Shown here piece by piece: positions 38,103-54,573 of a stretch of DNA of 64,000 bases. The notes beneath the pieces are model-generated. The model made no database searches, was not told the DNA's origin, and saw only the letters and a list, made by a program, of their open reading frames with translations. Source of the stretch: Quatrionicoccus australiensis. GTDB lineage: Bacteria > Pseudomonadota > Gammaproteobacteria > Burkholderiales > Rhodocyclaceae. Numbering within the stretch: position 1 is the stretch's first letter; each line of letters opens with the position of its first letter. The translations under genes and the position numbers were made by a program. The stretch lies in NCBI RefSeq assembly GCF_020510425.1, contig NZ_JAHBAH010000001.1:2337001-2401000 (forward strand), in the 5' to 3' direction.

Positions 38103-38993
38103 TCAGGCCGCTTCGCCCTCGCCGAGGAAGAGATTGGGCAGGGCGCGCGCATAGCCCTGCTCGCCGACCAGCACGTCGAGGGCCAGCGTCGCCAGGTCGT
38201 CGGCGAGCGGATCGACGTTGATATCCTTGTCCTGGAAGAAAGTCTTGATATAGCCGTGGCAGTGCTCGCAGGTTTCGGCCTGGACGGCGCCGCTGCTGCC
38301 TTCGAGGCCGAGATAATTGACCACGCTGCCGTCGGTGCACAGCGTGCAGCGGGCGCGCACGGCGTTCCAGCGCGTCGCGCACAGGCTGCATTCCTGATAG
38401 CGCAGGCCGGCGACGCCGTCACCGGCGCGCACGATGCTGCCGACCGCGGCGCTGCCGCAGCAGGGGCAGTTTTCCGGCTCACTCTCCAGATTGCTGGCGG
38501 TGGGCAGGCCGAGCTGGCGGGCGGCACCGCTCCAGACAACTTGCAGGGCGGCGGCGACGATCAGGTCGATCGTGTCGCGGCCGGCGGCGACGGCCTGTCC
38601 TGCAGCAAGCTCGAGGCAGGCGGCGGCGCGTTGTTCGAGACTGGCGCTGGTTTCGGCCTGCAAATCGACGTTGACCGCTGCGGCCAGACTGGCGCAGATC
38701 GCCGGCCAGGTATCACGCAGAGCCGCTTGCCCGGCATGCAGCACGGGGTGTTGCGGATCGAGCGTGGCGCTCTGGCGCAGGCCGCTGTCGGCAAGGCCTG
38801 CCAAAGCCTGTTGCTGTGCATCCGCCAGGTCAGCCAGCCACAACAGCCAGGGCGCCATGCTGTGGCCGCCGGCGAGATGACGCAGGCGGGCGGCACGGCG
38901 GGCGAAGAGATCGGCGGCCGGGGCGAGCAGGGCGGGCGGGGTGACGGTCGAAGGCAGGACTTGGGGTGGCAAATTCGGGGGCGGCAGGTTCAT
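38103..38993 (-). CDS. fdhE: Formate dehydrogenase accessory protein FdhE
   Basis: 296 aa. Four Cys pairs of a rubredoxin-like double zinc/iron site are present: CPCC, CSLC, CTLC and CEHC, in the order expected for FdhE (C-terminal half, about residues 180-275). The N-terminal half is helical and Ala-rich. FdhE binds the twin-arginine-exported catalytic subunit before export and is required for active membrane formate dehydrogenase. Last gene of the fdh cluster, 20 bases after fdhD. Confidence 0.92.
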   Translation of the reverse strand: MNLPPPNLPPQVLPSTVTPPALLAPAADLFARRAARLRHLAGGHSMAPWLLWLADLADAQQQALAGLADSGLRQSATLDPQHPVLHAGQAALRDTWPAICASLAAAVNVDLQAETSASLEQRAAACLELAAGQAVAAGRDTIDLIVAAALQVVWSGAARQLGLPTASNLESEPENCPCCGSAAVGSIVRAGDGVAGLRYQECSLCATRWNAVRARCTLCTDGSVVNYLGLEGSSGAVQAETCEHCHGYIKTFFQDKDINVDPLADDLATLALDVLVGEQGYARALPNLFLGEGEAA

Positions 38994-39013: not shown

Positions 39014-39895
39014 TTAGATGACGGGGTGGAGCAGGTTTTCGGCCTGCGTGCCGAGGCGTTCGCTGTGGCTGTAGGCCACGAGCTGGCCGGGGCGGGCGAA
39101 GCCGAGCAGCATGATACCGGCAGCTTCGGCCTGGCGAATGGCGAGCGAGGTTGGTGCGGAAATCGCAACCAGGGTGGAGATGCCGGCGGTGGCCGCTTTC
39201 TGCACCATTTCATAGGAAGCGCGGCTGGTGACCAGCGCGAAGCCGGCACCGCGTGGCGTTTGCTGGCGGGCGAGGGCGCCGACCAGTTTGTCGAGCGCAT
39301 TGTGGCGGCCGACATCCTCGCGGCAGCACTGGATGTTGCCAGCGAGATCGGCCCAGGCCGAGCCGTGCGCCGAGCCGGTCTGGCGGCGCAGGGGCTGCCA
39401 GTCGTTGAGCTGTTGCAGGCAGCGGTCGATGGCGGCGAGGCTGACTTGTTGCTCGCCCGTCGTTGCGAGCGCGGCCGGCATGCGCGCCACGTCGGCCAGG
39501 CTTTCGACGCCGCACAGGCCGCAACCGGTGCGCCCGGCCAGGTTGCGCCGGCGTTCCTTGAGTTGCAGGAAGCGCTGCGGCGCGATGTCCATTTCGATGC
39601 TGATGCCGTTGCAGGTGTTGCGCACTTCGAGGTCGTACAGTTCGCGACGATGCGCCAGGATGCCTTCGCCGAGACTGAAGCCGAGGGCGAAATCCTCGAG
39701 GTCGGCCGGCGAGGCCAGCATCACGGCCTGCGAAATGCCGTTGTAGACAAGCGCGACCGGGACTTCCTCGATCACTTCATCGTCGCTGGCTGCGGCGACG
39801 CCGCGGCAGACGCGGACGACATCGTGCAGGGCGGCGGTTGGCGGCAGAACGGCGTCGTCATCGGACAGGTCGGGGCGGATCAGGAAATCGGCCAT
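39014..39895 (-). CDS. fdhD: Formate dehydrogenase sulfurtransferase FdhD
   Basis: 293 aa from the ATG at 39895 (GAGGAAGGAC upstream); a longer open frame upstream has no supporting start. The key GRTGCGLCGVESL loop holds the two Cys that relay sulfur from IscS to the molybdenum cofactor. CREDVGRHNALDKLVGAL and TSRASYEMVQKAATAGI are further FdhD signatures. E. coli FdhD is 277 aa. Needed for sulfido-Mo maturation of the FdoG-type subunit. Confidence 0.94.
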   Translation of the reverse strand: MADFLIRPDLSDDDAVLPPTAALHDVVRVCRGVAAASDDEVIEEVPVALVYNGISQAVMLASPADLEDFALGFSLGEGILAHRRELYDLEVRNTCNGISIEMDIAPQRFLQLKERRRNLAGRTGCGLCGVESLADVARMPAALATTGEQQVSLAAIDRCLQQLNDWQPLRRQTGSAHGSAWADLAGNIQCCREDVGRHNALDKLVGALARQQTPRGAGFALVTSRASYEMVQKAATAGISTLVAISAPTSLAIRQAEAAGIMLLGFARPGQLVAYSHSERLGTQAENLLHPVI

Positions 39896-39911
39896 GCTGC
39901 GGTCCTTCCTC

Positions 39912-39950
39912 AAAAAGACGGGGGGCACGGCGTCGCCGCCATGCGCCCCC
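39912..39950 (-). terminator. Hairpin with T-run between fdoI and fdhD
   Basis: On the minus strand, GGGGGC...GCCCCC (39950-39921, with an inner GGCG/CGCC stem) is followed by CGTCTTTTTG. It fits a Rho-independent terminator or attenuator that lets only part of transcription reach fdhD and fdhE. This makes sense, because maturation factors are needed in smaller amounts. Confidence 0.55.
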
Positions 39951-39968
39951 AAAGCGCAAGGTAAAGCT

Positions 39969-40589
39969 TTACTTGCCGGTGACCTGACGGTACCAGCCGC
40001 GATGATGCTGCTTGGCCCAGGCGCGGGTGACCGTGCCGTACCACATGGCGCGCACCGTGCCCTTGACCCAGATCGCGGCATAGACGTGCACCATGATCAG
40101 GCCGATCATCACCGCGGCGGCCGCGGCATGCACCACGGCGCCGAGGCGCACGAGGTTGATGTCGAAGCCGAACCAGGCGCGCCAGATGGCCAGGCCGGAC
40201 AAGGTCATCAGCAGCATGCAGGCGGCGAGCGCCCAGAACATGACTTTCTGGCCGCCGTTGTACTTGCCCTGTTCCGGCATGTCGTGGTCGTTGCCGTCCA
40301 CCATGTTCTTGGCCTTGGCCAGCCATTCCTTGTCGGCCGGCGTCATCTTGTTGAGATGCTTGAAGCGCAGGAAGATGACCAGGAAGGCGGCGGCCATGAT
40401 CACCCCGAGGTAGGGGTGGATGATGCGTGCCCAGACCGGACCGCCGAACAGTTGCGTCAGCGGGAAGAAGGCCGGGTGGAAGAAGGCCAGACCGGAGAGG
40501 GCGAGCAGGATGAAGCTGATGCCCACCGTCCAGTGGTTGGCGCGTTCGGAAGCGTTGTAGCGCTTCAGGTCTTTCGGATCGCGAATCAT
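39969..40589 (-). CDS. fdoI: Formate dehydrogenase gamma subunit (cytochrome b556)
   Basis: 206 aa with four membrane helices. Haem-ligating His lie in [34 protein letters not shown] and in the last helix pair ([20 protein letters not shown]), as in E. coli FdnI/FdoI (about 211-217 aa). It anchors the complex and passes electrons from the beta subunit to quinone. It overlaps fdoH by four bases (ATGA). Confidence 0.92.
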
Positions 40590-41488
40590 TGTGCGTCCTC
40601 CTTTTCGCTGTCTTCTCGTTCAATTTCATCCTCGATCTCTTTCGAGACCTCGTTCGGACCCTTGGTCACGTAGTGGAACAGGCTGCCCAGCGCGACGGCA
40701 CCCAGTGCCAGCGTGGCGAGCGGCTTGGCGAAGCCCTTCCACAGGCCGACCATGGCGCTGATCGCCGGGTTGGCGGGCAGGCCGCTGTAGAGTTCCGGCT
40801 TGTCGGCATGGTGCAGCACGTACATCACGTGCGTGCCGCCGACGCCCTGCGGGTCGTAGAGGCCGGCCTGGTCGTAGCCGCGCGTCTTGAGTTCGGCGAC
40901 GCGGGTGGCGGCGACTTCCTTCATGTCTTCCTTGGAGCCGAACTGGATGGCGCCGGTCGGGCAGGTCTTGACGCAGGCCGGTTCCTGGCCGACCGCGACG
41001 CGGTCGGAACACAGCGAGCACTTGTAGGCCTTGCCGTCGTCCTTGGAAATGCGCGGCACGTTGAACGGACAGCCGGTCACGCAGTAGCCGCAGCCGATGC
41101 AGTTTTCCTCGTGGAAATCGACGATGCCGTTCTTGTACTGGATGATCGCGCCAGGTGACGGGCAGGCCTTGAGGCAGCCCGGATCGGCACAGTGCATGCA
41201 GCCGTCTTTGCGGATCAGCCATTCCAGCTTGCCGTTTTCTTCGGTTTCGGCAAAACGCATGACCGTCCAGGCGTTGGCCGCGAGGTCGGTCGGGTTGTCG
41301 TAGACGCCGATGTTCGTACCGACTTCGGCGCGGATGTCGTTCCACTCCGAGCAGGCGACCTGGCAGGCCTTGCAGCCGATGCAGGTGGTGACGTCGATGA
41401 GCTTGGCGACTTCGACCGTCTGGCGAATCTGCGTGGACGGCGTGGTGGTCGCCGAGCGGCGGAGGATGTCTAGTGATTGGAGAGCCAT
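40586..41488 (-). CDS. fdoH: Formate dehydrogenase beta subunit (iron-sulfur)
   Basis: 300 aa. Four [4Fe-4S] ferredoxin-type Cys sets: [35 protein letters not shown] and [18 protein letters not shown]-terminal membrane helix ([20 protein letters not shown]) matches the FdnH anchor. It conducts electrons from the Mo-subunit to the cytochrome b. 12 bases downstream of the catalytic subunit. E. coli FdoH is 300 aa. Confidence 0.94.
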
Positions 41489-41500
41489 GGCTTAAGCCCC

Positions 41501-44500
41501 TCAGATTTTCTCAAGGTTGACGAGGAAGGCCTTGTACTCCGGCGTCTGCGTATTGCAGTCACCGACGCCAGGCGACAGTGAGTTGGTCAGGAAGCCCTTC
41601 TTGGCGACGCTTTCCCAGCCCCAGTGCAGCGGAATGCCGATCTGGTGCACGGTCTGCTGGTTCACCGACAGTTCCTTGACGCGCTTGGTGACCACGGCCT
41701 TGGCCTTGATGTAGCCGCGCTTCGAACTGACCTTGACCCAGTCGCCCTGGACGATGCCCTTTTCCTTGGCCAGCACTTCGCCGATTTCGACGAACTGTTC
41801 CGGCTGGGCGATGGCGTTCAGGCGTACCGACTTGGTCCAGAACTGGAAGTGCTCGGTCAGACGATAGGTCGTGCCGACATACGGGTATTCCTTGTGCGTG
41901 CCGAGGCGCTCGCGGTCGCCCTTGAAAATGCGCACGGCCGGGCTGCTCACCACCTTGGGGTGAAGCGGGTTGGTGCCGAGTGGCGATTCCATCGGCTCGT
42001 AATGCTCCGGGAAGGGGCCGTCGACCAGCTTGTCCACACAGAACAGGCGACCGACGCCTTCCGGATTCATGATGAAGGGGTTCATGCCGGTCTCCGGGCC
42101 GGCATCGGCCTTGAAGTCGGGAATATCGGCCCCGCTCCAGCGTTCACCGTTCCAGCCGATCAGCTTGCGGCTCGGATCCCAGGCCTTGCCGGCCGGGTCG
42201 CAGGAGGCGCGGTTGTACAGGATGCGGCGGTTGGCCGGCCACGACCAGGCCCAGCCCGGCGTGTTGCCGAGACCGGTATCGGTGTTGTCGCGGCGGGCCA
42301 TCTGATTGCCGGCCTGCGTCCAGCAGCCGGAGAAGATCCAGCAGGCGCAACTGGTCGAGCCGTCGTCCTGGAGCAGCGCGAAGCCGGGCAGCTGTTCGCC
42401 CTTCTTGGCCAGCGTCTTGGTCTTGTCCTTGGGGTCGACGATGTCGGCCAGGGCCTTGCCGTTGAGTTCCTTGGCGAGTTCCTCGGCGCTCGGCGACTTC
42501 GGATCGCGGTAATTCCAGGCGACGTTGAAGATCGGCTCGGTGACCTTGCCGCCTTCCTTCTGGTACAGCTCGCGCAACTTGACGAACAGCTCGCCGATGA
42601 TTTCCTGGTCGGCCTTGGCTTCGCCCGGTGCATCGGCGCCCTTCCAGTGCCACTGCAGCCAGCGCGCCGAGCTGACGATGGCGCCGTCTTCTTCGGCAAA
42701 GCAGGTCGAGGGCAGGCGGAAGACTTCGGTCTGGATCTGGCTCGGATCGACGTTGTGCGATTCGCCCTGGTTCTGCCAGAAGGTCGAGGTTTCGGTGGCG
42801 ATCGGATCGATGATCACCATGTACTTGAGCTTGGAGAAGGCCTCGGTGACGCGGTTGGCATCCGGGAAGGAGGCGAGCGGGTTGAAGCCCTGCACGACGA
42901 AGCCGTTGATCTTGCCCTGGTGCATCATGTCGACCACCTGCAGGACGTCGTACATCTTGTCCCACTTGGGTAGCCAGTCGAAGCCCCAGTTGTTTTCCTT
43001 CGTGGCCTTGTCGCCCCAGAACCACTTCATCTGGCTGACGAAGAATTTCGGGGTGTTCGACCAGTAGTTGAACTGGCCTTCGCTGAGTGTCTTCGGCGTC
43101 GTCTTGGCGAGATAGTCGTCGAAAGTCGGATGCGTCTTCTCGTTGGGCAGCGTCATGTAGCCGGGCAGGGCGGTCGACAGCAGGCCGACGTCGGAAAGCC
43201 CCTGGATGTTGGAGTGGCCGCGCAAGGCGTTGACGCCGCCGCCGGGCATGCCGATGTTGCCGAGCAGCAGCTGGATCATCGCCATGGTGCGGATGTTCTG
43301 CGCGCCGACGGTGTGTTGTGTCCAGCCCAGCGCGTAGAGGATGGTGCCGACCTTGTTCGGCACAGCCGTTTCGCCAAGCATTTCGCAGACCTTGAGGAAG
43401 CCTTCCTTCGGCGTGCCGGTCAGGTTGCTGACGACATCCGGCGTATAGCGCGCGAAGTGGGCTTTCATCAGGTTCCAGACGCAACGCGGATGCTGCAGCG
43501 TCGGATCGGTCTTGATCTGGCCCTTGGCGTCGAGCTCGTAGCTCCAGCTGGATTTGTCGTACTTGCCTTTTTCCGTGTCGTAGCCGGAGAACAGGCCTTC
43601 CTCGAAGCCGAAGCCCTCGCCGATGATGGCGCTGGCATTGGTGTAGGCCTTGACGTATTCCCACTGGATCTTGTCGTTGGCGATCAGCCAGTTGATGACG
43701 CCGCCCAGGAAGGGAATGTCGGCGCCGGCGCGGATCGGCAGGTAGAGGTCGGCGACGGCGGCCGTGCGGTTGAAGCGCGGGTCGATCACGACCAGCTTGG
43801 CGCCGCGCTGCTTCTTCGCTTCGATCGCCCAGCGGAAGCCGACCGGGTGGGCTTCGGCGGCGTTGCCACCCATGACCAGGATGAAATCGGCATTCTTGAT
43901 GTCGACCCAGCTGTTGGTCATCGCGCCGCGCCCGAAGGTCGAGGCCAGCGCTGAGACGGTCGGGCCGTGACAGACACGGGCCTGCGCGTCGGTGGCGACG
44001 ATGCCGAGCGAACGGATGAATTTCTGGGTCAGGATGCCGGTTTCGTTGGAGCCGGCCGAGGCGGTCAGCATCGCCGTGGAAACCCAGCGGTTGACCGGCA
44101 CGCCGTCGGCATTTTTCTCGATCACGTTGGCGTCGCGGTCGGCCTTCATGTGCTTGGCGACGCGCTCGATGGCCTCATGCCAGCTGATGCGCTTCCATTC
44201 CTTGCTGCCGGCCTCGCGCACTTCCGGATACTTCAGGCGGTTCGGGCTGTGGATGAAGTCGAGCAGGCCGGCGCCCTTCGGGCACAGCGCACCGCGGCTG
44301 ACCGGGTGATCCGGGTCGCCTTCGATGTGGATGATCTCGGCCTTGGCGTTCTTGGCGCCATCGCCCAGGCTGTACATCAGCACGCCGCAACCGACCGAGC
44401 AGTAGGTGCAGGTGTTGCGGATTTCGCGGGCGCGGCTCAGCTTGTACTGGCGCACTTCGGCGCGTGCCGCTTCCGGTGCCATGCCGAGCACGGCGAGGCC

Positions 44501-44587
44501 GGAGCCGCCGAGACCGGCGGCGGATATCTTGAAGAACTGGCGGCGGTTAACCCGCAGGCCGGTTCCTGATTTTTCCTTGCTTTCCAT
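41501..44587 (-). CDS. fdoG: Formate dehydrogenase catalytic alpha subunit, Cys form, Tat-exported
   Basis: 1028 aa. Twin-arginine signal RRQFFKISAAG (15-25) places the active site in the periplasm. The [4Fe-4S] ligands are Cys60, 63, 67 and 102. The molybdenum ligand, Sec in E. coli FdnG/FdoG (RVUHGPTV), is Cys206 here (codon TGT, 43970-43972), so no selenocysteine machinery is needed. The C-terminal dinucleotide-binding domain is intact. Formate is oxidised to CO2 with bis-MGD and electrons go to quinone. AGAGGAGATCTGA precedes the ATG, and a sigma-54 promoter match lies about 115 bases upstream. Confidence 0.95.
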   Translation of the reverse strand: MESKEKSGTGLRVNRRQFFKISAAGLGGSGLAVLGMAPEAARAEVRQYKLSRAREIRNTCTYCSVGCGVLMYSLGDGAKNAKAEIIHIEGDPDHPVSRGALCPKGAGLLDFIHSPNRLKYPEVREAGSKEWKRISWHEAIERVAKHMKADRDANVIEKNADGVPVNRWVSTAMLTASAGSNETGILTQKFIRSLGIVATDAQARVCHGPTVSALASTFGRGAMTNSWVDIKNADFILVMGGNAAEAHPVGFRWAIEAKKQRGAKLVVIDPRFNRTAAVADLYLPIRAGADIPFLGGVINWLIANDKIQWEYVKAYTNASAIIGEGFGFEEGLFSGYDTEKGKYDKSSWSYELDAKGQIKTDPTLQHPRCVWNLMKAHFARYTPDVVSNLTGTPKEGFLKVCEMLGETAVPNKVGTILYALGWTQHTVGAQNIRTMAMIQLLLGNIGMPGGGVNALRGHSNIQGLSDVGLLSTALPGYMTLPNEKTHPTFDDYLAKTTPKTLSEGQFNYWSNTPKFFVSQMKWFWGDKATKENNWGFDWLPKWDKMYDVLQVVDMMHQGKINGFVVQGFNPLASFPDANRVTEAFSKLKYMVIIDPIATETSTFWQNQGESHNVDPSQIQTEVFRLPSTCFAEEDGAIVSSARWLQWHWKGADAPGEAKADQEIIGELFVKLRELYQKEGGKVTEPIFNVAWNYRDPKSPSAEELAKELNGKALADIVDPKDKTKTLAKKGEQLPGFALLQDDGSTSCACWIFSGCWTQAGNQMARRDNTDTGLGNTPGWAWSWPANRRILYNRASCDPAGKAWDPSRKLIGWNGERWSGADIPDFKADAGPETGMNPFIMNPEGVGRLFCVDKLVDGPFPEHYEPMESPLGTNPLHPKVVSSPAVRIFKGDRERLGTHKEYPYVGTTYRLTEHFQFWTKSVRLNAIAQPEQFVEIGEVLAKEKGIVQGDWVKVSSKRGYIKAKAVVTKRVKELSVNQQTVHQIGIPLHWGWESVAKKGFLTNSLSPGVGDCNTQTPEYKAFLVNLEKI

Positions 44588-44712
44588 TCAGATCTCCTCT
44601 TGCCCCGGCTTGCCCGCCGGGAACCCCTGTCAATGGCCGGTGTGGCGCCGGCATTTCCCCTTGTGCCGCCGGCTTGATGGACGGCGACGATGCAACTGAT
44701 GGCGGCTACATG

Positions 44713-44728
44713 TGCAAGCTGCGTGCCT
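44713..44728 (-). promoter_or_regulatory. Sigma-54 (-24/-12) promoter for the formate dehydrogenase operon
   Basis: Minus strand AGGCACGCAGCTTGCA: consensus TGGCAC-N5-TTGCA with one mismatch, GG and GC exactly ten bases apart. Predicted start near 44702, giving a leader of about 115 bases. An NtrC-type activator gene and a matching upstream dyad are adjacent, which makes the call stronger than the match alone. The 357-base gap 44588-44944 otherwise holds no gene. Confidence 0.7.
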
Positions 44729-44782
44729 GCTGCTCAATTCCTTAATAAGCAATGAGTTGAAAAAATGACCCTGCCAGCGGGT

Positions 44783-44817
44783 GGGTCAAAATGTCCCGGT
44801 GCGGGACAATTTGACCC
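44783..44817. promoter_or_regulatory. Upstream activator palindrome for the sigma-54 response regulator
   Basis: Left arm GGGTCAAAATGTCCCG (44783-44798), three-base spacer, right arm CGGGACAATTTGACCC (44802-44817): 15 of 16 bases pair. The core TGTCCCG-GTG-CGGGACA is perfect. Centred about 98 bases upstream of the predicted -12-derived start, the normal position for an NtrC-family enhancer. It lies between the fdo operon and the regulator gene, so it could also autoregulate the latter. Confidence 0.65.
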
Positions 44818-44944
44818 AGGTGGCAGAGCCGGTGCGGCTTGCCAGCGGAGCGCCAAAGCCTGTGCGGCGGACGGCCTGGCATGGACGGGGCGGGAAAGCG
44901 TGCGAGAATTGCCGCGCCCCCATTACGCACAACTTTTCACGGCA

Positions 44945-46303
44945 ATGAACGAACTCCCGGCAAGCGAAAGCAAATCTCCCTGGCAGCAATATTCCGTGCT
45001 GATCGTCGATGACGAGGTCGGCATGGTCAGCTTCCTGCAGCGGGCGCTGAGCAGCCGCTGTGGCGTGGTCGATAGTGCCGGCAGTGTCGAGGCCGCGCGC
45101 CCATTGCTCGAGCGCAGCCGTTACGACCTGATCGTGCTCGATATCGCCTTGCCCGGCTGTTCCGGCGTCGACTGGCTGCACGAATTGCGCGAGGAAGGCT
45201 ATGCCGGCGATGTCGTGCTGATGACCGCCTATGCCGATCTCGACACGGCAATCGAAGCCCTGCGTGCCGGTGCCGCCGATTTCCTGCTCAAGCCTTTTTC
45301 GCTGGCCCTGGTGCTCAATGCCATCCAGCGCTGTTTCGAGCGCTCGCGGCTGGCGCGCGAGAATTTTGTCCTGCGCCGTGAGGTCGGTCCGCGCGCTGCG
45401 GATGTCGCGGGCGTGATCGGCCAGTCCGAGGCGATATTCAAGGTTTGCGAGCGCCTGAAGAAAATCGCGCCGAGCGCAGCGACCGTGTTGCTGAGCGGCG
45501 AGTCCGGCAGCGGCAAGGAAGTCGCGGCGCGTGCCCTGCATGCGTTGAGTGCGCGCGCCGACGGGCCGTTCGTGCCGGTCAATTGCGCGGCAATTGCGGC
45601 CGAACTGATCGAGTCGGAACTGTTCGGCCACATCAAGGGCGCCTACACCGGCGCGCAGCAGCGCCGCGAGGGTCTGTTCTACTACGCGCGCGGAGGCACG
45701 CTCTTCCTCGACGAAATTTCCGAGTTGCCTTTGTCTGCGCAGGCCAAACTGCTACGCGTGCTTGAGGAAAAACGCATCCGGCCGGTCGGTTCGGAGCAGG
45801 AAATCGCCGTCGACGTGCGGGTCATCGCCGCCACCAACCGGGATTTGAAGCTCGAGGTCGGCGAGCAGCGCTTCCGGCAGGACCTCTATTACCGCCTGCA
45901 GGTCTTCGAGGTCATGCTGCCGCCCCTGCGCGAGCGTCCGGAAGATATTCCGCTGCTGTTCGATCATTTCGTCGCCCAGCTGGCGCCAAGCCTGGGGGTG
46001 CCGCCGCTGCATCTCGATGCGCGCACCCTGGCCCGTCTGGCCGATTACGACTGGCCGGGCAATGTGCGCGAATTGCGCAACCTGATCGAGCGTTCGCTGA
46101 TTCTCGGCTGGTTCGACATCGGCCATGAACCGGAGGTTGCGCCGGCTGCCTTTTCCTGTGCCGACGAAACACTCGAGGCGGTCGAGAAGTCGCACATCCT
46201 CGCGGTGCTCGCCGCCTGTGACGGCAACAAGTCGGAAGCCAGCCGGCGGCTTGGCATCTCGCGCAAGACGATGGACAGGAAGTGCCAGGCCTGGGGCGTC
46301 TGA
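44945..46303 (+). CDS. Sigma-54-dependent response regulator (NtrC family)
   Basis: 452 aa from the ATG at 44945. Receiver: VDDE (21-24), phospho-Asp66 in LIVLDIALP, Thr94, Lys116. AAA+ domain: Walker A GESGSGKE (185-192), sigma-54 contact loop GAYTGA (232-237; the Tyr variant of GAFTGA), Walker B GGTLFLDEI, R-finger region FRQDLYYRL. Fis-type helix-turn-helix at the end (GNKSEASRRLGISRKTMDRK). Coupled by TGATG to the sensor kinase. Its location next to a -24/-12 promoter and dyad points to formate dehydrogenase as target (inference). Confidence 0.93.
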   Translation: MNELPASESKSPWQQYSVLIVDDEVGMVSFLQRALSSRCGVVDSAGSVEAARPLLERSRYDLIVLDIALPGCSGVDWLHELREEGYAGDVVLMTAYADLDTAIEALRAGAADFLLKPFSLALVLNAIQRCFERSRLARENFVLRREVGPRAADVAGVIGQSEAIFKVCERLKKIAPSAATVLLSGESGSGKEVAARALHALSARADGPFVPVNCAAIAAELIESELFGHIKGAYTGAQQRREGLFYYARGGTLFLDEISELPLSAQAKLLRVLEEKRIRPVGSEQEIAVDVRVIAATNRDLKLEVGEQRFRQDLYYRLQVFEVMLPPLRERPEDIPLLFDHFVAQLAPSLGVPPLHLDARTLARLADYDWPGNVRELRNLIERSLILGWFDIGHEPEVAPAAFSCADETLEAVEKSHILAVLAACDGNKSEASRRLGISRKTMDRKCQAWGV

Positions 46304-48294
46304 TGCGCTTTGGCCGGCGCTCGATCCGCGTTCGCCTGCTGTTGCTGGCGCTGATCCCGCTCGGCTTCGTGCTGCCCCTGACCATCTCGGTGCTGGCCTA
46401 CTGGGGTGGCGACTACTTCAACCAGTTGCTGGTGACCAAGGTGCGCAGCGACCTGGCGATCGCACACGGGTATTACGAGCGGGTCAGCGAGGGGGTTGGC
46501 GGTTCGGTGGCCAGTCTGGCCGACTCGGCGCGCCTGGCGCGCGTGTTGGGAGCGCTGCCGCGACAGCATGACAAGGCGGTCGCCGGCGTGCTCAATGCCG
46601 TGCAGCAGGAGCAGAAACTTGATTTTCTCTATTTTCTCGACGTCGACCGTAGCCGGGCCGATGCGCGGGCCTGGCCGGTCGTCGCGGCGGCGCTGAATGG
46701 TCAGGCGCGCACCGCGACCGAAGTTTTTTCCGGCGCCCAGCTCTTTGCGATCAGTCCGGCGCTGGCCGAGCGGGCGCGCACGCCGGTGCTCGCTACCGCC
46801 AACGCGCGTGCCGATCAGCGCGAGGTCGAAGTGCGCGGCCTGGTCATCCACGCTGCTGCGCCGGTGCGCGATGCGAGCGGACGACTGCTCGGGGTGCTCA
46901 GCGGCGGCATCCTGCTCAACAAGAACCTGAGTTTCATCGATCGCCTGAATGCCATCGTCTATCCCGAGGGCGCCCTGCCGTTCGGCAGTGCCGGTACGGC
47001 GACCTTGTTCCTCGACAGCGTGCGGGTTGCCACCAACGTGCGCCTGTTCGGCAGTACGCGCGCCATCGGCACCCGCGTTTCGGCCGCGGTCGATGCGGCC
47101 GTGCTCGGCGAGGGGCGGACCTGGCTGGACCGCGCCTTCGTCGTCAGCGACTGGTATGTCTCGGCCTATGAGCCCCTGCTCGACAGCCGGCAGCAGCGTA
47201 TCGGCATGCTCTATGTCGGCTTCCTCGAAGGCCCTTTCGTGACCGCCCGGCAGCACGCCTTTGCCGCGATTGCCGGCGTCTTCCTGCTCGCCATGCTGAT
47301 CGCCGGGGTTTTTGCGATCTTTTGGGCGCGCAGTGTGTTCCGGCCGATCGAGCGCATGCATTCGACCATGCACGCCATCGAGCGGGGCAATGTCGATGCC
47401 CGCGTCGGGCCGCTGTCCACGCCGGATGACCTTGGCATCGTTGCTGCCCACTTCGATCGCATGCTCGATCGTCTGCAGTCGCAGGCCTCGTCGCTCAAGC
47501 GCTGGGGCGAGTCGCTCGATGCCAAGGTAGCGGAGCGCACCGCGGCGCTCGAACAGGCGGTGGCCGATCTCAAGGCGGCGCAGTCGCAACTGGTGATGAA
47601 CGAGAAATTGGCCGCCATCGGGCAGTTGACCGCTGGCGTCGCGCACGAAATCAACAATCCGATCGCCGTCATCCAGGGCAACCTCGACGTGTTGCGCGAT
47701 CTGCTCGGGCCGCAGGCCGAGCCGGTCGAGCCCGAGATCAAGTTGATCCAGGAGCAGATCCATCGCATTCGCCTGATTGTCGCCAAGCTGCTGCAATTTG
47801 CGCGGCCGCAGGACTATGTCGGTTATCTCGAGCCGGTGGCGGCCGCGCCCCTGATCCAGGACAGCCTGATCCTGGTCCGCCAGTTGCTCAAGACGAACAA
47901 GATCGCCATCGAGCAGCATGTCGATTCTCAACGCCAGATCACCTGCAACAAGAACGAGTTGCAGCAGGTCATGGTCAATCTGCTGGTCAATGCCATCCAG
48001 GCCATGCCGGACGGTGGTCTGCTGACCATTGCGGTCGAGGACTGGGACGCCGCCGACATGCCGCTCGGCATCCGCTTGATCGTCGCCGACTCCGGGCACG
48101 GGGTCAGCGAAGCCGACCGCGAGCGCCTGTTCCAGCCCTTCTACACGGCTCGCAAGCCGGGCGGCAACGGCCTTGGGCTGTGGGTCAGCAAATCGCTGGT
48201 CGAGCGCTACGGCGGGCGCATCACGATCGAGAACCAGCCCGGGCAGGGCGCCCGCTTCGTCGTCTGGCTGCGCCTCGAGCCGCAGGGGCTGTAG
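46303..48294 (+). CDS. Membrane sensor histidine kinase, partner of the sigma-54 regulator
   Basis: 663 aa from the ATG at 46303, overlapping the regulator stop (TGATG). TM1 about 12-35; a periplasmic single/double-Cache-type sensor (about 36-325; VIHAAAPVRDASGRLLGVLSGGILL); TM2 about 327-350; HAMP; a coiled coil with AERTAALEQAVADLKAAQSQL; HisKA with His in AAIGQLTAGVAHEINNPIAV; ATPase with DSGHGVSEADRERLFQPF and GNGLGLWVSKSL. NtrB/DctB-like kinase core. The Cache sensor suggests a small carboxylate such as formate as signal, not proven. Confidence 0.92.
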   Translation: MRFGRRSIRVRLLLLALIPLGFVLPLTISVLAYWGGDYFNQLLVTKVRSDLAIAHGYYERVSEGVGGSVASLADSARLARVLGALPRQHDKAVAGVLNAVQQEQKLDFLYFLDVDRSRADARAWPVVAAALNGQARTATEVFSGAQLFAISPALAERARTPVLATANARADQREVEVRGLVIHAAAPVRDASGRLLGVLSGGILLNKNLSFIDRLNAIVYPEGALPFGSAGTATLFLDSVRVATNVRLFGSTRAIGTRVSAAVDAAVLGEGRTWLDRAFVVSDWYVSAYEPLLDSRQQRIGMLYVGFLEGPFVTARQHAFAAIAGVFLLAMLIAGVFAIFWARSVFRPIERMHSTMHAIERGNVDARVGPLSTPDDLGIVAAHFDRMLDRLQSQASSLKRWGESLDAKVAERTAALEQAVADLKAAQSQLVMNEKLAAIGQLTAGVAHEINNPIAVIQGNLDVLRDLLGPQAEPVEPEIKLIQEQIHRIRLIVAKLLQFARPQDYVGYLEPVAAAPLIQDSLILVRQLLKTNKIAIEQHVDSQRQITCNKNELQQVMVNLLVNAIQAMPDGGLLTIAVEDWDAADMPLGIRLIVADSGHGVSEADRERLFQPFYTARKPGGNGLGLWVSKSLVERYGGRITIENQPGQGARFVVWLRLEPQGL

Positions 48295-54015: not shown

Positions 54016-54573
54016 ATGAACATGCAGAAAAATTCCATGATGCGACTTTTGCCGCTCGCCGGTTTCCTGGCACTCGGTGCCTGTACCGTCATGCCGACCG
54101 GGCCGAGTGTGATGGCCCTGCCCGGCAGTGGTCAGTCGATCGAGCGCTTCCGTGCGGATGATGTTTATTGCCGCCAGTTTGCGCATACCCAGATCGGCGG
54201 CAAGACGGCCGAAGAGGCGGCGCAGAAGTCGGCGGTGACCAGTGCGGCGGTCGGAACGGCGGTCGGCGCGCTGGCCGGTGCGGCAATTGGCGGCGATGGG
54301 CGCGGTGCGGCGATTGGTGCCGGTGCCGGCCTGTTGCTCGGCAGTGCGGCGGGTTCCGATGCGGCGCGCGCTTCCGGCGTCGGTACCCAGCGCCAGTACG
54401 ACAATGCCTACGTGCAGTGCATGTATGCCCAGGGACATCGTGTCCCGGTGCCGGCCAGTATGGCGACGCCGCGTGCGTCAGCTTCCGCGCCATCCCCCAC
54501 GGCGGTGCGTGCCGCCGATGCCGGCATTCCTCCGCCGCCGCCGGGTTTGCCCCCGCCGCCGCCAGCCCGATAG
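54016..54573 (+). CDS. Glycine-zipper outer-membrane lipoprotein
   Basis: 185 aa. Lipobox LGAC at about residue 23. A Gly-zipper hairpin (about 80-120) alternates G and A every three to four residues (GTAVGALAGAAIGGD ... IGAGAGLLLGSAAG), the YMGG/Rick-17kDa type that inserts in membranes. A conserved QRQYDNAYVQCMYAQGH follows, then a Pro-rich tail ending in PPPPPGLPPPPP. Probably an outer-membrane structural or stress-response lipoprotein. Confidence 0.75.
   Translation: MNMQKNSMMRLLPLAGFLALGACTVMPTGPSVMALPGSGQSIERFRADDVYCRQFAHTQIGGKTAEEAAQKSAVTSAAVGTAVGALAGAAIGGDGRGAAIGAGAGLLLGSAAGSDAARASGVGTQRQYDNAYVQCMYAQGHRVPVPASMATPRASASAPSPTAVRAADAGIPPPPPGLPPPPPAR

Follow-up and report, generated by a model that had tools for sequence, protein, structure and literature searches.

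The window analysed here, a stretch of 64,000 nucleotides from Quatrionicoccus australiensis (contig NZ_JAHBAH010000001.1, positions 2,337,001 to 2,401,000), encodes an NtrC-type response regulator and a Cache sensor histidine kinase that together probably form a formate-responsive two-component system, activating the divergent formate dehydrogenase (FDH) operon fdoGHI-fdhDE via sigma-54. A first-pass annotation, prepared from the sequence of this DNA alone, had proposed that the pair senses formate and switches on fdoGHI-fdhDE, a reading that is largely supported by the comparisons presented here, with every element it described (the regulator, the TGATG-coupled kinase, a -24/-12 match, a dyad, and a GAYTGA motif) present in the sequence. 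Beyond the window, we consider it reasonably likely that the pair represents a formate-sensing two-component system widespread in alpha-, beta-, and gammaproteobacteria, which would combine a chemoreceptor-type formate pocket with one 15-bp operator code, and which would have been re-wired before several kinds of FDH, one of them non-homologous, with many regulators of the Rhodobacteraceae having lost the sigma-54 loop and promoters.

A gap of 357 bases (44588-44944) parts the minus-strand fdoG gene from the plus-strand regulator and kinase genes. The regulator (44945-46303) has the features of an NtrC-family protein, namely a receiver domain with the phospho-aspartate D66, an AAA+ sigma-54 activator domain with a GAFTGA-type loop (GAYTGA, residues 232-237), and a Fis-type helix-turn-helix. 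The kinase (46303-48294), the ATG of which overlaps the regulator stop codon as TGATG, comprises a periplasmic sensor, a HAMP domain, a HisKA domain with H448, and a HATPase_c domain. We infer the ligand, the phosphorelay, the binding of DNA, and the direction of regulation: the periplasmic Cache region of the kinase would bind formate, with the kinase expected from its family to autophosphorylate at H448 and to phosphorylate D66 of the regulator, dimers of which would bind the operators at 44783-44797 and 44803-44817 and assemble, allowing the GAYTGA loop to activate sigma-54 polymerase at 44713-44728 and resulting in transcription of fdoGHI-fdhDE.

Putative operators and promoter upstream of fdoG

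The gap contains a sigma-54 -24/-12 match, AGGCACGCAGCTTGCA (44713-44728, minus strand), which faces fdoG and scores 11/12. Dinucleotide shuffling of the 357-base gap gave a score of at least 11 on either strand in 20 of 2000 trials, so that this match taken alone is no more than suggestive. For the dyad at 44783-44817, none of 2000 shuffles equalled the symmetry. Whilst the near-perfect symmetry claimed by the first-pass annotation for a 35-base dyad stands, the single long dyad does not, the sequence being made up of two 15-bp palindromes, a predicted promoter-proximal operator, GGGTCAAAATGTCCC (44783-44797), and a predicted distal operator, GGGACAATTTGACCC (44803-44817). These putative tandem operators are of the form GGGWCA-N3-TGWCCC, lie 20 bp apart, and are centred 63 and 83 bp upstream of the -24/-12 GG, with the close packing of the two giving the appearance of a long dyad. 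A single 35-bp site was rejected, since the 15-bp units recur in relatives at a spacing of 20, 29, or 30 bp, making the operator pair the conserved unit rather than one long dyad. An earlier search of relatives for the pattern TGTCCC-N4..6-GGGACA and a looser form of it matched only the window, the register of the repeat being wrong.

Across the genome to which the window belongs, the loose operator pattern is not enriched, with 5 places compared with 4 for the reversed pattern, and two of the five are GGGTCAAAATGTCCC and GGGACAATTTGACCC. A further palindrome within the window, GGGACATCGTGTCCC (54432-54446), is probably a chance match, given the similar numbers obtained with the reversed pattern.

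Operators and co-occurrence in the genus

Upstream of the fdoG genes of congeners lies a 15-bp palindrome, GGGACA-N3-TGTCCC, which is mostly paired. Upstream regions were compared for 49 fdoG genes with an N-terminus on the contig (genes represented by later fragments only, as in G009 and G001, were left out), of which the G029 gene has a masked upstream and the G094 gene belongs to a kinase-free genome, leaving 47 testable kinase-bearing cases. With thresholds of at least 10/12 matches for an operator and at least 9/12 for a sigma-54 site in place, at least one operator is found at 46/47, a pair at 43/47, and a sigma-54 site at 44/47, with single operators at one fdoG copy of G031 and at G070. 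The spacing of the pair is 29 bp in 35 cases, 20 bp in four, and 30 bp in four, and the centre of the proximal operator lies 62-66 bp from the sigma-54 GG in 41 cases and 75-76 bp in three. The fdoG upstream of kinase-free G094 has neither operator nor sigma-54 site (0/1), as is also the case for fdoG genes of outgroups from other families of the same order (0/6, two of these upstreams being short, at 456 and 264 bases), with none of the six outgroup genomes giving a kinase match better than E 1e-27. The first-pass annotation had named a lack of dyad conservation alongside orthologous pairs as an outcome that would refute its proposal; this test did not refute it, the kinase-free cases amounting to 0/7 for operators and promoter.

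The association extends to gene content. In a first sample, kinase orthologues were present in 28/35 congeners. In a first set of 30 loci, fdo adjoins the regulator-kinase pair in only six, with housekeeping genes and an ATP-binding cassette (ABC) transporter among the other neighbours. Neighbourhood alone had thus seemed to weigh against the proposed control of fdo, an impression overturned by the operator search. A genus set of 76 genomes was searched for the kinase, FdoG, and a distant catalytic subunit from locus L055, labelled FDH3, with the kinase found in 65/76, FdoG in 47/76, and FDH3 in 16/76; at the thresholds used FdoG and FDH3 never occur in one genome among the 76, and both track the kinase. 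Kinase and FDH are both present in 62 of these genomes and both missing in 10, with three carrying the kinase only and one, G094, carrying FDH (fdoG) only (Fisher 3e-9, a value that ignores relatedness). For the 51 good-quality genomes of the set the corresponding numbers are 44, 6, 0, and 1. The leaders of FDH3 operons carry an operator and a sigma-54 site in 16/16 genomes, ten of them scored with a looser sigma-54 threshold of 9.

A strict form of the operator pattern is found in 29/60 genomes compared with 2/60 for the reversed pattern, its best places being FdoG in 21, FDH3 operons in six, the regulator-transporter gap in one (L099), and a probable chance match in one (L108). The L108 match (G034:C128:1080) lies on a short contig with genes that on visual inspection seem foreign to the genus; the contig is probably a contaminant and the match due to chance. 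The ABC transporter, with a binding protein of the TIGR04553 ‘putative selenate’ type (387.6 bits against a cut-off of 250), is divergent from the regulator in some congeners, at L036 (6966-7880), L042, L099, L123, and L191, with an operator located within the intervening gap at L036, L042, and L099. The proposal that this transporter acts as the supply for a selenocysteine FDH appears weak, the transporter coinciding with SelB in 28/41 genomes (p 0.01, a weak tie across the genus), showing no tie to FdoG (29/41, p 0.10), and being present in 10/16 FDH3 genomes.

Distribution of the module and coupling to the GAFTGA loop

Named genomes scanned with the kinase alignment yielded 80 loci, the best 80 of 592 matches, spanning Rhodocyclales, Hydrogenophaga, Bradyrhizobium, Rhizobium, Methylobacterium, Roseovarius, Azospirillum, Pseudoxanthomonas, and others. 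FDH genes lie in the examined flanks of 40/80 of these loci (FdoG 8, FDH3 18, FdsA-type 11, metal-free 3), and either an FDH or an OFA-like transporter gene in the flanks of 65/80. Operator-promoter units, in which a sigma-54 site scoring at least 10/12 lies 20-180 bp after an operator, number 51 in 41/80 named loci, compared with 0, 1, 2, 1, 0, 2, and 4 for seven scrambled palindromes. The genes behind these 51 units encode an OFA-like transporter in 26 cases, FdoG in seven, an FDH3 operon in two, and a metal-free NAD-dependent FDH in one, with 15 unassigned. The metal-free FDH, at L175, belongs to another superfamily (NF005750, 655 bits against a cut-off of 329), and a short open reading frame lies between its promoter and the FDH gene. 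As judged from these predicted units and flanks, the module is no local invention, occurring elsewhere with FdoGHI, FDH3-type, NAD-dependent Fds-type, and metal-free FDHs, and with OFA-like transporters.

In a subgroup of the pair (L178, L183, and L175), operators and sigma-54 sites also precede Hsp70, bestrophin, and DUF308 genes, and at L175 an Hsp20 gene, these being some of the 15 unassigned genes; together they would amount to a stress-type regulon under the shared operator.

A related regulator stands beside 75/80 of the named kinases, with the phospho-aspartate equivalent to D66 retained in 75/75. The GAFTGA-like loop is intact, within one change, in 57/75 of these regulators, with the other 18/75 showing a degenerate loop or an alignment gap at this point. 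An operator-promoter unit is present at 39/57 loci with an intact loop and at 2/18 with a degenerate one, a coupling which is the prediction for a putative direct sigma-54 activator. Regulators with a degenerate or gapped loop stand beside FDH3-type operons at L153, L171, L177, L185, L186, L187, L189, L190, L192, L198, L199, and L202; these are mostly from Rhodobacteraceae, and have perhaps switched to another sigma factor.

The sensor domain and a putative formate triad

The Pfam domain sCache_3_3 (PF17202) matches residues 205-315 of the kinase with 91.9 bits. A search of the PDB with the single sensor sequence gave 8py0 (6e-5) and 8py1 (0.0065), and in a profile search these two were the only significant matches (2.5e-5 and 4.5e-5 respectively), with DcuS next at 0.14. 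The two entries are labelled as a chemoreceptor ligand domain and a methyl-accepting chemotaxis protein, and are presumably those of the study of the formate receptor PacF. Kinase residues R241, T244, and T257 (47023-47073, plus strand) align to R, T, and T of 8py0, to which the alignment was made, with an R-x2-T-x12-T spacing identical to that of R142, T145, and T158 of PacF, changes in which are reported to affect formate binding (PMC12501870). An sCache_3_3 domain with the reported residues has also been assigned formate as its ligand (PMC12415202).

This triad is invariant, being retained in 80/80 named kinases and in 30/30 kinases of loci L001-L030 (that of the window included), however invariance alone does not single it out, as the surrounding strand is conserved as a whole. 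Two other sCache_3_3 proteins from the same genome as the window lack the triad. An AlphaFold2 model of the kinase sensor is confident (pLDDT 91.7, pTM 0.87). The Cache assignment of the first-pass annotation holds, with the correction that, from the secondary structure of the model, the sensor region reads as two alpha/beta modules, R241 and T244 appearing to sit on one strand of the second, membrane-proximal module. The proposal of formate as the signal gains independent support from the invariant triad, from the two significant solved relatives, both chemoreceptor domains, and from the several kinds of FDH among the putative targets.

Evidence to the contrary and alternative explanations

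A number of observations weigh against a formate-responsive activator of FDH genes. At the level of targets, 15/51 operator-promoter units precede genes not assignable to formate, with 11 of these in L178 and L183, and 15/80 named loci lack both FDH and OFA-like genes in the examined flank. Two of the class assignments are below their curated cut-offs, the best NCBIfam match of FDH3 being formate dehydrogenase alpha with 472 bits (cut-off 666), and that of the OFA-like major facilitator superfamily transporter being an L-lactate transporter with 306.7 bits (cut-off 320). Within the genus, G023, G073, and G098 carry the kinase with no FDH found (these genomes being 74, 81, and 88% complete respectively), G099 has the kinase and fdoG yet no operator or sigma-54 site within 193 upstream bases, the second fdoG copy of G071 has a single operator but lacks a sigma-54 site, and G006 fdoG has operators with no sigma-54 site found (35 bases are masked). 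The strict operator pattern is missing from 31/60 genomes, including that of the window, and Fisher values overstate independence, since the genomes are related. With regard to the sensor, the R115A variant of Atu0526 is reported to bind formic acid still, with chemotaxis lost (PMC8698456), so that this arginine may be dispensable for ligand binding. The modelled position of the triad in the membrane-proximal module differs from PacF, where formate is reported to bind in the distal module (PMC12501870). The same triad furthermore occurs in a paralogous kinase of the genome that holds the window (L203, G000:C1:941030-943018), which is 35% identical.

The alternative that best survives, though we consider it unlikely, is that the wiring is as described but responds to a different small carboxylate (oxalate, lactate, or acetate) or to some other cue, with FDH as one response. 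The commonest assigned gene downstream of the operators is indeed the OFA-like transporter nearest to the L-lactate transporter, and the stress-like set of genes at L178, L183, and L175 would also be in keeping with this alternative. However, formate is the common substrate of targets across lineages, including the metal-free FDH from another superfamily at L175, and the sensor triad is invariant.

It is considerably less probable that the dyad acts in autoregulation of the divergent regulator gene, its nearness to fdoG being incidental. The gap in the window is common to both genes, and in a few relatives (G005, G018, and G072) an operator does lie in the gap upstream of the regulator itself, however the sigma-54 match in the window is oriented towards fdoG, and operators are found at fdoG in G006, G007, G016, G018, and G030, where fdoG and the pair lie on separate contigs or ~20 kb or more apart. 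As fdoG and the pair are unlinked in several genomes, physical linkage is not the explanation of the operator pattern, and the regulatory wiring is not private to the window locus. Least probable of all is that another regulator uses the operators, with the pair as a bystander, for although 14 further sigma-54 activator domains score strongly in the genome (out of 20 matches in total), within the genus the operators track the pair, being missing in kinase-free G094, and sigma-54 units are largely absent where the loop of the regulator itself is degenerate.

Relation to known systems

The pair belongs to the broad NtrC-type family, resembling AtoSC, ZraSR, and NtrBC in its receiver-AAA+-Fis regulator, GAFTGA-type loop, predicted paired inverted-repeat sites, and predicted sigma-54 promoter, but by curated scores it is not AtoC, ZraR, NtrC, or FhlA. 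The best NCBIfam scores fall far below the curated cut-offs for AtoC (390 against 714 bits) and AtoS (183 against 646 bits), with the regulator reaching 354 of 760 bits for ZraR, 383 of 559 bits for NtrC, and 279.6 of 830 bits for FhlA. The sensor and targets of the window pair also differ from those of AtoSC, ZraSR, and NtrBC, as does the operator sequence.

FhlA is not part of a two-component system, lacks a receiver domain, and senses formate itself. The window regulator resembles FhlA, the formate sigma-54 activator of Escherichia coli (PMC8743547), as a putative sigma-54 activator serving formate metabolism, and differs from it in having a receiver domain and a membrane kinase as its input. 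In its Cache module and R-x2-T-x12-T spacing, the kinase is similar to PacF and other sCache_3_3 formate chemoreceptors, however the reported output of PacF is chemotaxis (PMC12501870), whereas that of the window protein would be kinase activity, with the triad in a different module.

Sigma-54 control of FDHs has been predicted previously, with formate dehydrogenases reported to make up 32% of 176 sigma-54-assigned COG3383 members, and E. coli fdoGHI-fdhE reported as a target of the RpoN holoenzyme in vitro (PMC12316311, PMC8743547); the accessible portions of these reports name neither the kinase-regulator pair of the window nor the operator. An rpoN mutant of Cupriavidus necator is reported to have slightly reduced fitness on formate (PMC11540253). 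Neither a described two-component regulator of formate dehydrogenase nor this pair was found in the searched literature, from which subscription journals were mostly missing, so that absence in print is not established. Formate sensing for respiration outside FhlA seems little described. One sensor-operator code marking several kinds of FDH would allow the annotation of formate regulons, and would help to find new formate genes, such as transporters and stress genes, and to build a formate biosensor, with the ligand, pocket, and operator proposed here immediately testable.

The formate dehydrogenase operon and its local history

All five genes of the operon lie on the minus strand. The fdoG gene (41501-44587) encodes the formate dehydrogenase-N alpha subunit, of 1028 residues with its start at 44587, which carries the motif ARVCHGPTV with no in-frame stop and scores 1527.6 bits against TIGR01553 (cut-off 814.2). 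It is followed by fdoH (40586-41488), encoding the iron-sulfur subunit (TIGR01582, 478.9 bits against a cut-off of 334.7), and fdoI (39969-40589), encoding the cytochrome b subunit (TIGR01583, 172.9 bits against a cut-off of 115.85), such that the alpha, beta, and gamma subunits of formate dehydrogenase-N/O all exceed their curated cut-offs. The sulfurtransferase gene fdhD (TIGR00129) is listed at 39014-40081, its true start probably lying further in, as the listed open reading frame overlaps fdoI. The product of fdhE (38103-38993) has three FdhE Pfam domains, and at 186.5 bits scores slightly below the TIGR01562 cut-off of 187.65.

The stop-free, cysteine-type fdoG of the window is 78% identical to an Azospirillum TSH64 gene and 81% identical to one G071 copy, compared with 58-69% for the remaining matches in congeners; the majority of these contain a single in-frame TGA, which presumably encodes selenocysteine. 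No SelB above the cut-off was found in the genome that contains the window. The 20-bp operator spacing occurs in four fdoG copies, those of the window, G063, G016:C4, and G064:C12, all without in-frame stops, with the other stop-free copies (G070, G031, G071, and G075) having one operator or a 30-bp spacing. The pattern suggests that a cysteine-type operon was acquired together with its operators and came under the control of the resident regulator, and the window fdoG looks like a replacement of a resident selenoprotein gene.

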